From contig NZ_JACHNC010000001.1 of assembly GCF_014205215.1 (NCBI RefSeq), positions 7,994,501 to 8,058,500 on the forward strand: a DNA stretch of 64,000 nucleotides, written 5' to 3'. The notes under the pieces were generated by a model that searched no databases, was not told the origin of the DNA, and saw nothing but the letters and a program-made list of their open reading frames with translations. Below are positions 3,594 through 36,333 of the stretch, one piece after another. The DNA is from Actinoplanes lobatus (GTDB lineage: Bacteria; Actinomycetota; Actinomycetes; Mycobacteriales; Micromonosporaceae). Position 1 is the stretch's first letter. Each line of letters begins with the position of its first letter. The position numbers and the translations under genes are program-made.

Positions 3594-3890
3594 TTAACCA
3601 ATACGCTCCGACCGGCCAACGACACGCTCGTAAGAGGTAGGAAAAGGTGAGCCGAGGACAGCCTCGCGCGCCGAATCGTTCGCATTCTTCGCGTAAACCA
3701 GGAGGAAGGACATCGCATCGGCCCCGTTGGCGAACAGCCGGCCGCACACCTGCTCTTCGATCCAGGTCCACACCTCGCCAGGCACGTTGAGCTCCGCCCA
3801 TTTGCGAACCAGCCCCTCGACAATCGAACAAGTGTACGATAGGGGCTTCGCTGGGCCGCGACGAGCATCAACGCCAGGGACGAACACCAT
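3594..3890 (-). CDS. Hypothetical small protein, possibly a remnant
   Basis: This 98-residue frame has a plausible protein composition (VRKWAELNVPGEVWTWIEEQ, then GADAMSFLLVYAKNANDSAR) rather than the Arg/Pro/Ala-rich look of G+C-rich shadow frames. It lies in the lower-G+C part of the element remnant. I recognise no family. The N-terminal 15 residues are less convincing, so the true start may be internal. The frame could be the decayed fragment of a larger element-borne gene. Confidence 0.35.
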   Translation of the reverse strand: MVFVPGVDARRGPAKPLSYTCSIVEGLVRKWAELNVPGEVWTWIEEQVCGRLFANGADAMSFLLVYAKNANDSAREAVLGSPFPTSYERVVGRSERIG

Positions 3891-4001
3891 CGGCTGACGG
3901 CTCTAGCTCGGGCAGAACCACGCAGCTAGGCTCCTGAAACCTTGCAGGGCCAACGTCGTCCCGACCTAGAACGAAACACGCTGCACGAGGAGCGAACGTC
4001 A

Positions 4002-33374: not shown

Positions 33375-34934
33375 TCAGTCGAGGCTCAGCCTCGGCCAGT
33401 CGGCCAGGTCGGTGAGCAGGCGGCGGTCGTGGGTGGCGACCACGACCGCGGCCGAGGTACGCCGCAGTGCCGCGGTGAGTTCGTCGACCAGAGCCGCTGA
33501 CAGATGGTTGGTCGGCTCGTCGAAGATGATCAGATCCGGTCGTGGGGTCAGACGCGCCGCCAGGTCGAGGCGGCGCTGCTGGCCCAGCGACAGACGAGAC
33601 ACCGGGGTACGCCAGGCTTCCGCGTCGAGCAGGCCGGTCGCGTCGATGGGGCAGATCCGGCGTGCCGTGGCACCCGGCGGCCAGTCCGGGACCTCCTGTG
33701 CGACCAGGGCGACGCTCGCGGCGGGCGACCGGTGGACCGTGCCGGCGGTCGGGGCGAGGCGGCCGGCCAGGACGGCCAGGAGGGTGGACTTGCCGGAGCC
33801 GTTCGCGCCGGTGACCACGAGCCGTTGGCCGCCGGCGAGCTCCAGGGTCACCGGCTTTCGCAGGCGGGTGCTCACCCGTACCCCCTGGGTTCGAATGATC
33901 GGAAGGCCGGGCCGCGTCTCCGGCTCGGGCCACCGCAGAGCCGGCGGGGGTGGCGGCACGGTGATCCGGTGCGCGGCCAGGGCCTCGCGATCGCGATTCA
34001 GCGCCTGCACCACGCCGGGTGTGTGGGACTGGCGTTTGTGCTTGTTGACGCCCTTGTCGGGGCGCCAGCCGGTGGTCAGCCGGGCCCGGGCGCGGTCCAC
34101 CGCCTGCTCCAGGCGGCGATGCTCGGCCTGCTGCTCCTCGTGCTCCTGCTCCCAGCGCTGCCGGTCGCGGCGGCGGCCGTCCTGCCAGGCGTCGTAGCCC
34201 CCGGCATGCCAGCGGGGCCGGCCGTCGCTGCTCGGGTCCAGGTCGAGAAACTCCCGGGCCACGTCGCGCAGCAGCTGACGGTCGTGGCTCACGATCGCCA
34301 GGCCGCCGGGGTGCTCGCGCAGGCGGGTGGTCAGGAAGGTCAGGCCGTCGGCGTCCAGGTGGTTGGTCGGCTCGTCCAGCAGCAGCAGGTCGTGGTGTGC
34401 GCCGAGCAGGCAGGCGAGCCGGACCCGGTAGCGCTGGCCCACCGAGAGGGTGGACAGCTCACGGTCGCGGTCGGCGCAGGCGTTCAGCGCTTCCAGGGCG
34501 ACGTCGACGCGGCGGTCGGCGTCCCACGCCTCCAGCCGGGTGGCCGCCTCCAGCGCCGTCGCGTAGCGGTCGCCGGCGCCCGGGCGGCCCGCGGTCAGGT
34601 CGTCGGTGGCCTGATCGAGAGCGGTCAGGGCGGTGTGTGACGCGTGCAGGGCCCCACCGGTGAGGGTGCCGACCGTCTGGCCGGGGCCGGCCGCCAGCGC
34701 CTGCGCGGCCAAGCCGACGGTGCCGGCCCGGTGCACGGTGCCGGCGTCCGGGGTGAGCAGGCCGGCCAGGACGTGCAGCAGGGTGGTCTTGCCGCGGCCG
34801 TTCTCGCCGACGATCGCCAGACGGGACCGCGTGGAGACGGTGACCGAGACGTGGTCGAGGATCCGGCGGGCGCCGAGGGTGAGGGTGAGGTCGTCGGCGC
34901 GCAGTTGGGCGGCCGTGATGGTTTCCAGGGACAC
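33375..34934 (-). CDS. ABC-F ATPase, probable ribosome-protection antibiotic resistance protein
   Basis: The 519-residue protein starts at the GTG at 34934; an earlier in-frame ATG at 35012 would run through the leader region. Two ABC domains are complete: Walker A GENGRGKT (43-50), signature LSVGQR, Walker [13 protein letters not shown]; and [26 protein letters not shown]. The charged linker between them ([20 protein letters not shown]) is the P-site tRNA-interaction motif helix of ABC-F proteins. No membrane segments exist. Members evict macrolides, lincosamides or streptogramins from the ribosome. A leader peptide with a macrolide-arrest motif lies upstream (35032-35076), strongly supporting drug-inducible control. 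Confidence 0.9.
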
Positions 34935-35031
34935 GGGGTTGCTCCGCAGCTCTCGAAGAGGAGCCGGGTAGCCGGAGAGGGCCGCCCGGCAGGACGCCGA
35001 GACGGCGGGCATGGTGCAGGTCGCGCCGCCG
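34935..35031 (-). promoter_or_regulatory. Probable attenuator between leader peptide and ABC-F gene
   Basis: A 6-bp G+C stem (35026-35041, CCGCCG and CGGCGG) with the leader stop codon in its loop starts this segment. Further complementary pieces lie toward the GTG, such as GCTC and GAGC around the Shine-Dalgarno region near 34950. Ribosome arrest on the leader could switch pairing to expose the ABC-F start or prevent termination. Structure is inferred by eye. Confidence 0.5.
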
Positions 35032-35076
35032 TCAGCGGCGGATCCGCAACCTCATGAAAGCGATCCCTGTGTGCAT
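35032..35076 (-). CDS. Leader peptide of the ABC-F gene ([14 protein letters not shown])
   Basis: ATG at 35076, stop at 35034-35032, 14 codons: [14 protein letters not shown]. The internal Met-Arg-Leu-Arg is the arrest motif of the ErmD leader peptide (MTHSMRLRFPTLNQ), where macrolide-bound ribosomes stall at an Arg-X-Arg motif. Here it lies 97 bp ahead of a resistance-type ABC-F gene, the usual position of an attenuator peptide. The peptide should have no other function than to sense drug-bound ribosomes. Confidence 0.75.
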
Positions 35077-35163
35077 GGCGGCCACGCTAGCGGGGGCCGC
35101 CCGCGGCCGCCAACCATTTTCCGGATGTTCTCATCATCGGGATGGCGTGAGTATCCTGGTGGC

Positions 35164-36333
35164 ATGGTTCGGTTGACGCGGGCGCAGCAGCAGGCGCGCA
35201 CCCGGGCCGCGGTGCTGGGCGCCGCGGCGTCGGAGTTCGAGGAGCACGGTTATGCGGAGGCGAAGGTCGACCGGATCGCGGAGCGGGCCGAGCTGACCCG
35301 CGGGGCGGTGTATTCGAACTTCTCCAGCAAGCGGTCGCTCTATCTGGCGGTGCTGCTCGACGAATGGCCGCACCGGCCGATCACCGGTGCCGGCCTTCTG
35401 CCCTCTGAACCGGCGTTCGGCGTTGCGGCGGCGGCGGAGGCGTTCGCCCGGGTCTGGCTGGAGCGGCTGCCGCTCGCCGGGGACACGGCGGCCGGGGCGC
35501 GGTTGCGGGCGCGGTCGGTGGCCGGGGTGTTCGACGACGAGCCGGGGCGGCGGGTGCTCGGTGAGCTCACCCGCTTGGAAGGGCTCCTCCTCGGGCTGGC
35601 TCTGGAGTCGTGCCAGCCGCCGGGCGGGCGGCGGGTGCGGCTCGCCGAGACGATCCTCACCCTGCTGCACGGGGCCGACCACCTGGCCGAGTCCGCGCCC
35701 GGGTTCGGGGACCCGTTCGACCTGGCGCGCGCCTGCGGTCATCTGACATCCATCTCGCTGCACGATGAGTGGGACCCGCCGCACCTGCCGTTCATCCCGG
35801 CGGCGCTCACCTGCGACGACCCGTGGGAGCCACCCGAGGAGATCGACGACGGGGTGCTCGTGGTGCTCGGTGCCCGGCGGCTCGGCGCGGCCGAGGAGGC
35901 GGTGCGGGCCGTCTCCCGGGCTGCTTCCCCCGGCGCGGACCCGGCCTCTCCCGCCGCGGAGCCGGACCAGGCGGGCTCCTTTGGGGAGCCGGACCAGGCG
36001 GGCTCCTTCGCGGAGCCGGAGCAGGCGACCTCCTTCGCGGAGGCGGTGCGGGCCGCCGACAACGTCACCATCGCGGCCGTGACCAGCGATCCCGCCGAGA
36101 TCGGGGCGCTCGTGCGGCTGCGGGTCAGCGGGATCATGGCCATGCTGCGGCAGATCTTCCCCGGCGGGGTGCGACCACCCGTCCGGATCATCCTCGACGG
36201 GGCGGAGGGGTTCGCCCACGCCGTCGGCGTGCCAGTGGGCGACGACACGGAGGCCGCGGTGCGGATACGGGATGGGCGCATCATCGCGCGCGCGGATGGC
36301 CGCGGCGCCGGGCATGCGGCGGCGACGGCATGA
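35164..36333 (+). CDS. TetR-family regulator with long C-terminal extension
   Basis: It has 389 residues from the ATG at 35164 (about 190-220 is usual for TetR). The N-terminal helix-turn-helix is clear: ARTRAAVLGAAASEFEEHGY, then VDRIAERAELTRGAVYSNFS. The ligand domain runs to about residue 230. Residues 266-292 are three 9-residue repeats of the type EPDQAGSFA (27-bp DNA repeat at 35959-36039). A further domain of about 90 residues follows (FAEAVRAADNVTIAAVTSDP, then AMLRQIFPGG). Its last codons overlap the next gene by ATGA, so it is the first gene of the PPDK operon and probably controls it. Confidence 0.85.
   Translation: MVRLTRAQQQARTRAAVLGAAASEFEEHGYAEAKVDRIAERAELTRGAVYSNFSSKRSLYLAVLLDEWPHRPITGAGLLPSEPAFGVAAAAEAFARVWLERLPLAGDTAAGARLRARSVAGVFDDEPGRRVLGELTRLEGLLLGLALESCQPPGGRRVRLAETILTLLHGADHLAESAPGFGDPFDLARACGHLTSISLHDEWDPPHLPFIPAALTCDDPWEPPEEIDDGVLVVLGARRLGAAEEAVRAVSRAASPGADPASPAAEPDQAGSFGEPDQAGSFAEPEQATSFAEAVRAADNVTIAAVTSDPAEIGALVRLRVSGIMAMLRQIFPGGVRPPVRIILDGAEGFAHAVGVPVGDDTEAAVRIRDGRIIARADGRGAGHAAATA

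Follow-up and report, generated by a model that had tools for sequence, protein, structure and literature searches.

The closest described systems are the RLR-class leaders ErmDL (MTHSMRLRFPTLNQ), MefEL/MefAL (MTASMRLR) and Msr(A)L (MTASMRLK) (PMC4335068, PMC8298421, PMC10314930), which share with the locus reported here a short Met-Arg-Leu-Arg upstream open reading frame (uORF) preceding a macrolide-resistance gene, ABC-F genes included. RLR-class attenuation as a kind is known already, and MRLR leaders ahead of ABC-F genes were reported for Firmicutes, i.e., for MefE/MefA and Msr(A) (PMC4335068, PMC10314930). The present locus differs from these by a predicted translational switch, by an arrest triplet that alternates with +X(W), and by an extension of three codons plus a hairpin at the stop; furthermore its uORF is predicted to be leaderless, whereas MefEL was reported with a ribosome-binding site (PMC4335068). 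Among the relatives described below, the leader of L105 (MSTASMRLRSGR) is almost a copy of the Mef/Msr(A) core. A different code is represented by MsrDL (MYLIFM), for which termination arrest was reported (PMC10314930) and which resembles the predicted leaderless uORFs termed type B in the following (e.g., MHLYFL and stop); MsrDL is described to work on an intrinsic terminator (PMC10314930), and the locus under study is itself of type A. The Listeria HflXr leader likewise comprises fourteen codons with RLR ahead of an erythromycin-related resistance gene, but it was reported to act by transcription attenuation, on another gene and in Firmicutes (PMC6310831). Within actinomycetes, uORF-controlled ABC-F genes were described with tiaA, are5sc (actinobacterial ARE5) and lmrC (PMC12421871). 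Unlike what is suggested here, tiaA and are5sc were reported to respond at the start codon to lincosamides, pleuromutilins and streptogramin A, not to erythromycin, and the peptides given for them (MLV, MVGDDDISG) lack a +X+ triplet (PMC12421871). Clostridium cplR finally shares the ABC-F gene and translational attenuation by a uORF, but differs in its uORF (MR[I/M]), in start-proximal stalling and in the drugs concerned (PMC10201436). Leaders such as those reported here were found described nowhere in the titles, opening lines of abstracts and consulted passages of open-access papers; MARGIWSQ-type leaders gave no description in print either, the text GIWSQ matching a kiwifruit paper only.

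The window, i.e., the entire 64-kb stretch of DNA analysed, carries the features collected in Table 1. An initial annotation, made from the sequence alone, had placed a 14-codon leader 97 bp ahead of an ABC-F gene and a hairpin around the leader stop. Re-reading of the minus strand confirmed the frame (ATG CAC ... CGC TGA), its distance of 97 nt to the GTG of the ABC-F gene and the hairpin, whose loop holds the stop. The ABC-F assignment likewise stands, as two Pfam ABC_tran stretches were identified and the best NCBIfam model is that of ribosome-protection-like ABC-F proteins, albeit below its cut-off: this generic model (NF000355) reached 296.7 bits (the best of all models) where the curated cut-off is 380, followed by the TlrC/CarA/OleB/SrmB producer model (NF000171; 273.6 bits, cut-off 800) and the Msr family (NF000168; 185.8 bits, cut-off 680). 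Since the best curated models score below their cut-offs, the resistance function of the ABC-F protein and its drug class are spoken of as putative throughout. A second, longer in-frame start of the gene exists (ATG 35012); the GTG was taken as start, because GGAG is located 7 nt upstream of it and close relatives start there. Named proteins, one of A. campanulatus with 94% identity among them, point to an Actinoplanes relative as the source of the genome. Rfam attenuators gave no match at gathering score within the window. The same genome holds no erm gene above the Erm cut-off, the best match reaching 130.7 bits as compared to the required 212 and belonging to what we take, by judgement, to be an RsmA-like protein. 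Divergently from the uORF a TetR-type regulator gene starts (from 35164, plus strand), and the region between the two (35117-35164) holds a motif like GATGATGAGAACATCCG, which recurs in several close relatives and may be a TetR operator.

Table 1. Features of the leader locus; positions refer to the window.
Feature	Position	Strand	Remark
14-codon uORF, ATG CAC ... CGC TGA, stop TGA	35076-35032	minus	ORF reading
Arg-Leu-Arg, codons 9-11, putative +X(+) arrest triplet	35044..35052	minus	codon -6 R/K, codon -4 R/W in 42/42 leaders
Stop hairpin CCGCCG-CUGA-CGGCGG, 6 bp, leader stop in loop	35041-35026	minus	
Arm 1, GACGGCGG	35026..35033	minus	arm 2 is its partner in the predicted stalled state and in the 38-sequence consensus fold
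Arm 2, CCGCCGUC	35001..35008	minus	paired to arm 1 in the predicted ON fold and to the Shine-Dalgarno region in the predicted OFF fold
Hairpin 3:4	34963..34990	minus	forms in either predicted state of the window
ABC-F Shine-Dalgarno region (UCGAGAGCUGCGGAGC)	34941..34956	minus	predicted OFF state joins GCGG 34947-34944 to CCGC 35008-35005
ABC-F ATPase gene, 519 aa, GTG start 34934	33375..34934	minus	likely ribosome-protection factor
GAAAAT, WblC/WhiB7-type box	35116..35121	minus	matches GAAAWY with 0 mismatches; putative function
-35 element TGGCGG (TKGMNN)	35107..35112	minus	17 bp spacer to -10
-10 element TAGCGT	35084..35089	minus	transcription predicted to begin at 35076, on the A of the ATG

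As a generic sigma-70 promoter scan found no promoter, the region upstream of the uORF was judged by the consensus reported for WblC-dependent promoters, i.e., GAAAWY, 3 bp, TKGMNN, 16-19 bp, TANNNT and a transcription start 7-8 bp on, a set published for S. coelicolor (PMC7157823). The promoters of this WblC/WhiB7 regulon possess the same order and spacing of elements as the window (PMC7157823), where GAAAAT-3-TGGCGG-17-TAGCGT with the ATG after 7 nt matches the Streptomyces consensus without a mismatch. The full pattern including an ATG occurs once in the window, at the leader ATG, and in none of 100 shuffles. Given this exact match and the predicted start on the ATG, a leaderless uORF behind a WblC-activated promoter is predicted.

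For comparison, ABC-F relatives were assembled from 80 loci of named genomes and the best 30 same-genus matches (that of the window included), 49 of the 67 genomes of the genus holding an ABC-F match at E 1e-60 or better. From 119 loci, 105 were anchored upon dropping nine paralogues of the window's own genome (L002-L010) and five late-starting matches (L027, L037, L066, L084, L104), one of which, L084, carries a type-A leader; with L062 dropped for its shorter upstream region, 104 loci (the window's own included), all with at least 250 nt upstream, were subjected to a search rule. This demanded TANNNT at leaderless distance (11-15 nt before the start), followed by a uORF either of type A, defined as [R/K]-x-[R/W], three codons and stop, or of type B, a short hydrophobic uORF resembling MsrDL. 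The rule was satisfied in 101 of the 104 upstream regions, 48 being of type A, 53 of type B, none of both and three of neither; it was composed after inspection of these same loci, which include near-duplicates (100 distinct proteins). Controls gave no hit at all (0/104 reverse strands, 0/104 intragenic stretches and 0/100 further-upstream stretches, i.e., 0/308), and mononucleotide shuffles gave 2/2080. Applied unchanged to 18 further loci, which include duplicates of L021 (L203) and of another earlier locus (L178), the rule was passed by 17, L219 being the miss; as four of the 18 had been known earlier as matches of an RNA model, the wholly unseen test amounts to 13 of 14. The three failures among the 104 are as follows: L012 has its leader further upstream (found by model R1, see below), with an RIR triplet followed by two codons instead of three, L017 has a leader without TANNNT and L055 is a near miss (MSYDAYCIFLFV). 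For tree building they were labelled by hand as A, A and B, respectively. In a quick tree of the 100 distinct proteins with two outgroups, a single branch (SH-aLRT 90) separates type A (48 proteins) from type B (52). If the drawn position of the outgroup is accepted, type A is one clade and type B the remainder, possibly a grade. Type-B-like uORFs, predicted to be leaderless, were found in 54 of the 57 other loci listed (the exceptions being L036, L062 and L087), 53 of which pass the rule, with peptides such as MHLYFL, MHLYFM, MHLIFQ, MQYLFFL, MSYQFYL and MIQQLLFL, each closed by a stop codon. In one further locus (L181) a type-A leader is present and the ABC-F frame behind it seems interrupted in the assembly.

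The distance between TANNNT and the start codon is 12-13 nt in all 48 type-A loci and 12, 13 or 15 nt in all 53 type-B loci, the rule permitting 11-15. A feature not imposed by the rule is a peak of A+T 28-32 nt before the -10 box, which in type A reaches 0.65-0.85 as compared to mostly 0.2-0.3 nearby and which is weaker in type B (0.42-0.71). At most two mismatches to the WblC consensus were counted in 21 of 46 type-A promoters (0.6% of shuffles) and in 19 of 52 type-B promoters (0.3% of shuffles); in many type-A relatives, i.e., the rest of the 46 with more than two mismatches, the consensus is degenerate.

Whether relatives keep the short frame and its RLR codons had been named beforehand as the test of the leader, and this test was passed, as the triplet holds its position in all 42 leaders examined. 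These 42 type-A leaders, used for motif analysis and folding, exclude duplicates (L097, L106), outliers (L036, L087) and loci recognised later (L012, L031, L032, L103). Codon -6 stands for Arg in 26 leaders and for Lys in 16, codon -5 varies between Leu, Val, Ile, Pro, Met and Thr, and codon -4 encodes Arg in 37 leaders, using all four CGN codons, and Trp in five; in 42 of 42 the stop is TGA and three codons lie between triplet and stop, with an overall leader length of 12, 14, 15 or 18 codons. As 37 of the 42 were preselected for [RK]-x-[RK] anywhere after residue 5 and the other five by the stop hairpin, the independent result is the place and spacing of the triplet and not its presence. The triplets observed are RLR, KVR, RIR, RPR, RMR, KIR, KLR and RTR for +X(+), and KPW, KLW and RLW for +X(W). 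On the best tree of the 48 type-A proteins (eight with W) the two alternate with six changes (5-7 over bootstraps), four of which are forced by well-supported branches alone. Label shuffles gave change counts as low as the observed one in 34 to 46 of 500, hence the +X(W) label is considered scattered, and an origin of the W leaders as one clade, considered as well, was ruled out by their scattering on the type-A tree.

These data bear on whether the peptide matters at all. Conservation is largely found around the leader stop and the downstream arms, as would be expected if the conserved DNA were an RNA structure or promoter element only and the peptide incidental to it. This reading is regarded as highly improbable, since Arg at codon -4 is exchanged synonymously and codon -5 conservatively, R is repeatedly replaced by W without disturbing the frame or the spacing of three codons, and the other ABC-F loci hold a different coding uORF at a similar distance to the -10 box (a distance set by the rule). 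The synonymous CGN use, the variable codon -5 and the fixed spacing together make it look as if the peptide itself, besides the RNA, were under selection. The +X(+), +X(W) and XP(W) motifs were reported to be enriched with erythromycin in inverse toeprinting using E. coli ribosomes (PMC6238534), and the repeated swaps between two codes sharing a drug response constitute the strongest sequence argument for macrolide arrest. It speaks against this that for ErmDL with erythromycin, the RLR triplet was described to be partly dispensable and N-terminal residues to matter (PMC8298421).

The inducer might also be a ketolide, a streptogramin B or a lincosamide, that is, another drug of the tunnel or peptidyl transferase centre instead of an ordinary macrolide, given that lincosamides, pleuromutilins and streptogramin A act on actinobacterial ARE5 leaders (PMC12421871) and that a stronger +X+ dependence was reported with ketolides (PMC8298421). 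This is held to be distinctly unlikely: the stalling described for the ARE5 leaders occurs at the start codon and is not elicited by erythromycin (PMC12421871), erythromycin was reported for both +X(+) and +X(W) (PMC6238534), and the best named family, TlrC/CarA/OleB/SrmB, is grouped with macrolide/streptogramin B resistance (PMC10201436). Furthermore, genes of the erm type are preceded by a similar layout, as detailed below.

For the RNA, alignment A1 and the covariance model R1 were built from 38 of the 42 leaders, omitting near-copies (L017, L020, L098, L101). The consensus fold of these 38 pairs arm 1, located at the leader stop, with arm 2 and contains in addition hairpin 3:4; arms 1:2 and 3:4 give standard pairs in 95.1% of cells as compared to at most 52.6% for slid versions. 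The covariation term of RNAalifold is -0.01, double changes occur in two of 22 pairs (shuffled mean 1.9) and double-change cells number 12 versus 5.2 shuffled; covariation being weak, the helices rest mainly on sequence conservation. In a model where the ribosome blocks 29 nt, the mean unpaired probability of the Shine-Dalgarno over the 42 leaders was 0.351 with a ribosome at the arrest codon (the X of the triplet), 0.203 at the stop and 0.211 without a ribosome, the corresponding values of the window being 0.40, 0.18 and 0.20. The peak of the 42-leader mean spans P sites -5 to -3. Counting differences over 0.02, the arrest state left the Shine-Dalgarno more open than the stop state in 37 of the 42 leaders and less open in one, and L021, L112, L114 and L117 gained no clear accessibility upon stalling. 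When the stretch between leader stop and Shine-Dalgarno was dinucleotide-shuffled (252 shuffles, six per leader and dependent), the gain of arrest over stop fell from 0.148 to 0.003 (p 1e-10) and that of arrest over the empty state from 0.140 to 0.041 (p 6e-6). The absolute predicted accessibilities on stalling are modest. In the predicted folds of the window, 35033-35026 pairs with 35008-35001 when the ribosome is stalled, and upon termination 35008-35005 pairs with 34947-34944 and 35002-34997 with 34956-34951. In both states the ABC-F start codon is paired to the first bases of the leader, for which the switch model gives no explanation. As partner of the Shine-Dalgarno, arm 4 of the hairpin had been considered and was ruled out, since folding gave arm 2.

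With the Shine-Dalgarno masked and no terminator-like site found, the switch looks translational; the underlying scan demanded a T-run, detected no terminator in the window and would miss other actinobacterial terminators. Premature transcription termination is nonetheless described as the usual scheme for the leaders of ARE ABC-F genes (PMC12421871, PMC10201436, PMC4335068), and the very stable and strongly conserved hairpin 3:4 could be a terminator averted by stalling, a scheme for which the leaders of mefE/mel and erm(K) provide the model. Against this the result of the T-run scan has to be set, as well as the prediction of hairpin 3:4 in both states of the window and likewise in the majority of 21 leaders inspected, which means that it is the exposure of the Shine-Dalgarno that switches and not this hairpin. 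Moreover, cplR is a reported example of an ABC-F gene controlled at the level of translation (PMC10201436). Transcription attenuation is considered unlikely here.

It is thus with good confidence that the 14-codon uORF is suggested to be the drug sensor of a translational attenuator, where stalling of a macrolide-bound ribosome on Arg-Leu-Arg would free the Shine-Dalgarno of the ABC-F gene. Drug-sensing attenuation had been the initial reading too; leader conservation, motif and spacing in relatives support it, and it is considered understated. Directly present in the sequence are the uORF, conserved in motif and spacing, the match to the promoter consensus and the complementarity of the arms, and the following reaction order is suggested to operate on them. 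Initially, the WblC/WhiB7-type promoter would start transcription on the A of the leader ATG, yielding a leaderless mRNA. In the absence of the drug, ribosomes at the stop would cover arm 1, or the stop hairpin would sequester it after their release, whereupon arm 2 is predicted to pair with the ABC-F Shine-Dalgarno region and to keep translation low. In the presence of a macrolide, the motif suggests a ribosome stalled in an ErmDL-like manner, with Leu10 occupying the P site and Arg11 next to be added. Such a ribosome would sit on the 5' arm of the stop hairpin and leave arm 1 uncovered; arm 1 could then capture arm 2 and, following the folding prediction, release the Shine-Dalgarno. The ABC-F protein thus formed may finally protect the ribosome by clearing the drug, as its family membership suggests. 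The 3' arm of the stop hairpin is hence predicted to have a second role, that of opening the switch, and the spacing of three codons appears to fit this geometry: assuming standard ribosome footprints, codon 10 in the P site would leave the 5' arm of the hairpin covered and most of arm 1 free.

Model R1 was subsequently used to search beyond the assembled loci. The window's own genome gave one clear site (139.6 bits), the next reaching 21. Within the genus, at E 0.01, 35 sites were found in 33 of 67 genomes, 31 of which adjoin ABC-F genes by coordinates; the other four comprise an APH_6_hur/AAA_33 fusion (L169), two P-loop kinases (L170, L171) and one false match (L172). At class level, at E 1e-4, 13 of 394 genomes were hit, i.e., the own one, five with ABC-F (where L128 repeats L021) and seven with erm, and at family level, at E 0.01, 22 of 121, i.e., 12 with ABC-F (own included), seven with erm, two with kinases and one false. 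The low-scoring matches L172 and L197 were rejected, as a leader is absent there. Taken together, a similar layout of uORF, stop hairpin and Shine-Dalgarno was found before 14 erm loci (L132, L134-L139, L189-L191, L193, L194, L196, L198), with a readable leader in 12; the start was unreadable in L139 (a partial model match) and in L198 (neither ATG nor GTG). Three of the Erm proteins were checked and all exceed the cut-off (236.5, 260.9 and 280.3 bits versus 212), the remaining eleven assignments resting on shared N-terminal sequence. The erm-type leaders include MGALNIRIRIA, MCCFACFTRIRRS, MSVFALIRMRRF and MCAAIRLRSAR, in which R-x-R is followed by two or three further codons, and comparison of 11 erm promoters to the WblC consensus identified six with at most one mismatch, one with two and four that do not match (4-6 mismatches). 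The actinobacterial Erm(X) and Erm(36) leaders, GTAFLRLRTNR and IAVTRFRRF, resemble both the leader of the window and these erm-type leaders, and to our knowledge no link of theirs to ABC-F genes has been described. Besides erm, similar attenuators precede a P-loop kinase family (L169, L170, L171, L192, L195), where of the two proteins tested against Pfam L169 and L171 both contain AAA_33 and L169 also APH_6_hur. Four of the leaders at kinase loci read MGC...M[QN]IR-x-AA and that of L192 reads MCAGASVTRSCGFR; possibly the P-loop kinase is an unrecognised antibiotic-defence kinase.

What is new relative to the described leaders is hence a predicted leaderless, probably translational RLR-class attenuation common to ABC-F and erm genes. 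In its widest form, towards which we lean slightly, this would be an actinobacterial macrolide-sensor cassette that combines a WblC-type promoter and a leaderless uORF with a Shine-Dalgarno switch and lies ahead of ABC-F and erm genes as well as of the unassigned P-loop kinase family, with the kinase as an unrecognised defence gene against a ribosome-targeting drug and with the ABC-F family split on the two arrest codes of the Firmicute mef/msr operon, one MefAL-like (+X(+), widened to +X(W)) and the other MsrDL-like. Actinobacterial ABC-F groups were called poorly characterised, and follow-up on how uORF consensus relates to ABC-F resistance and inducibility was called warranted (PMC10201436). 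With two leader codes splitting along the tree, one actinobacterial ABC-F family offers such a relation, and its natural exchange of +X(+) for +X(W) mirrors the erythromycin motif list obtained in vitro. If the proposal holds true, inducer and arrest codon would become predictable for many uncharacterised genes, leaderless templates for arrest studies would be at hand, WblC control would be linked with attenuation and model R1 would find more candidate resistance genes.

Plasmids carry both leader types as well. Among 72,556 plasmid records, 19 hold an ABC-F relative at E 1e-80, and six stretches were read. Plasmid pRErm46, which carries erm(46), holds MYASTGFMKPWSLR before its ABC-F gene and VGNTNIAVTEFRRF, with a GTG start, before erm(46) (L174, 6650 and 3734-3903); erm(46) is predicted to possess a leaderless uORF of its own. 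The Micrococcus plasmid pLMV7 holds MYRGIASMKLRSAR before an ABC-F gene that is followed by an MFS gene (L175, 3798-3960). The gene tables of pRErm46 and pLMV7, which are incomplete, have no uORF annotated. Two Streptomyces plasmids carry type-A leaders, whereas Gordonia and Glutamicibacter plasmids carry type B with ABC-F plus MFS. On the plasmids of L175, L178 and L179 the gene of the MFS transporter directly follows the ABC-F gene, a pairing like that of mef and msr in reverse order. Apart from the leader locus, ARAGORN reported a single unusual tRNA-like element at 2156-2251 of the window, its anticodon (ctga) comprising four bases.
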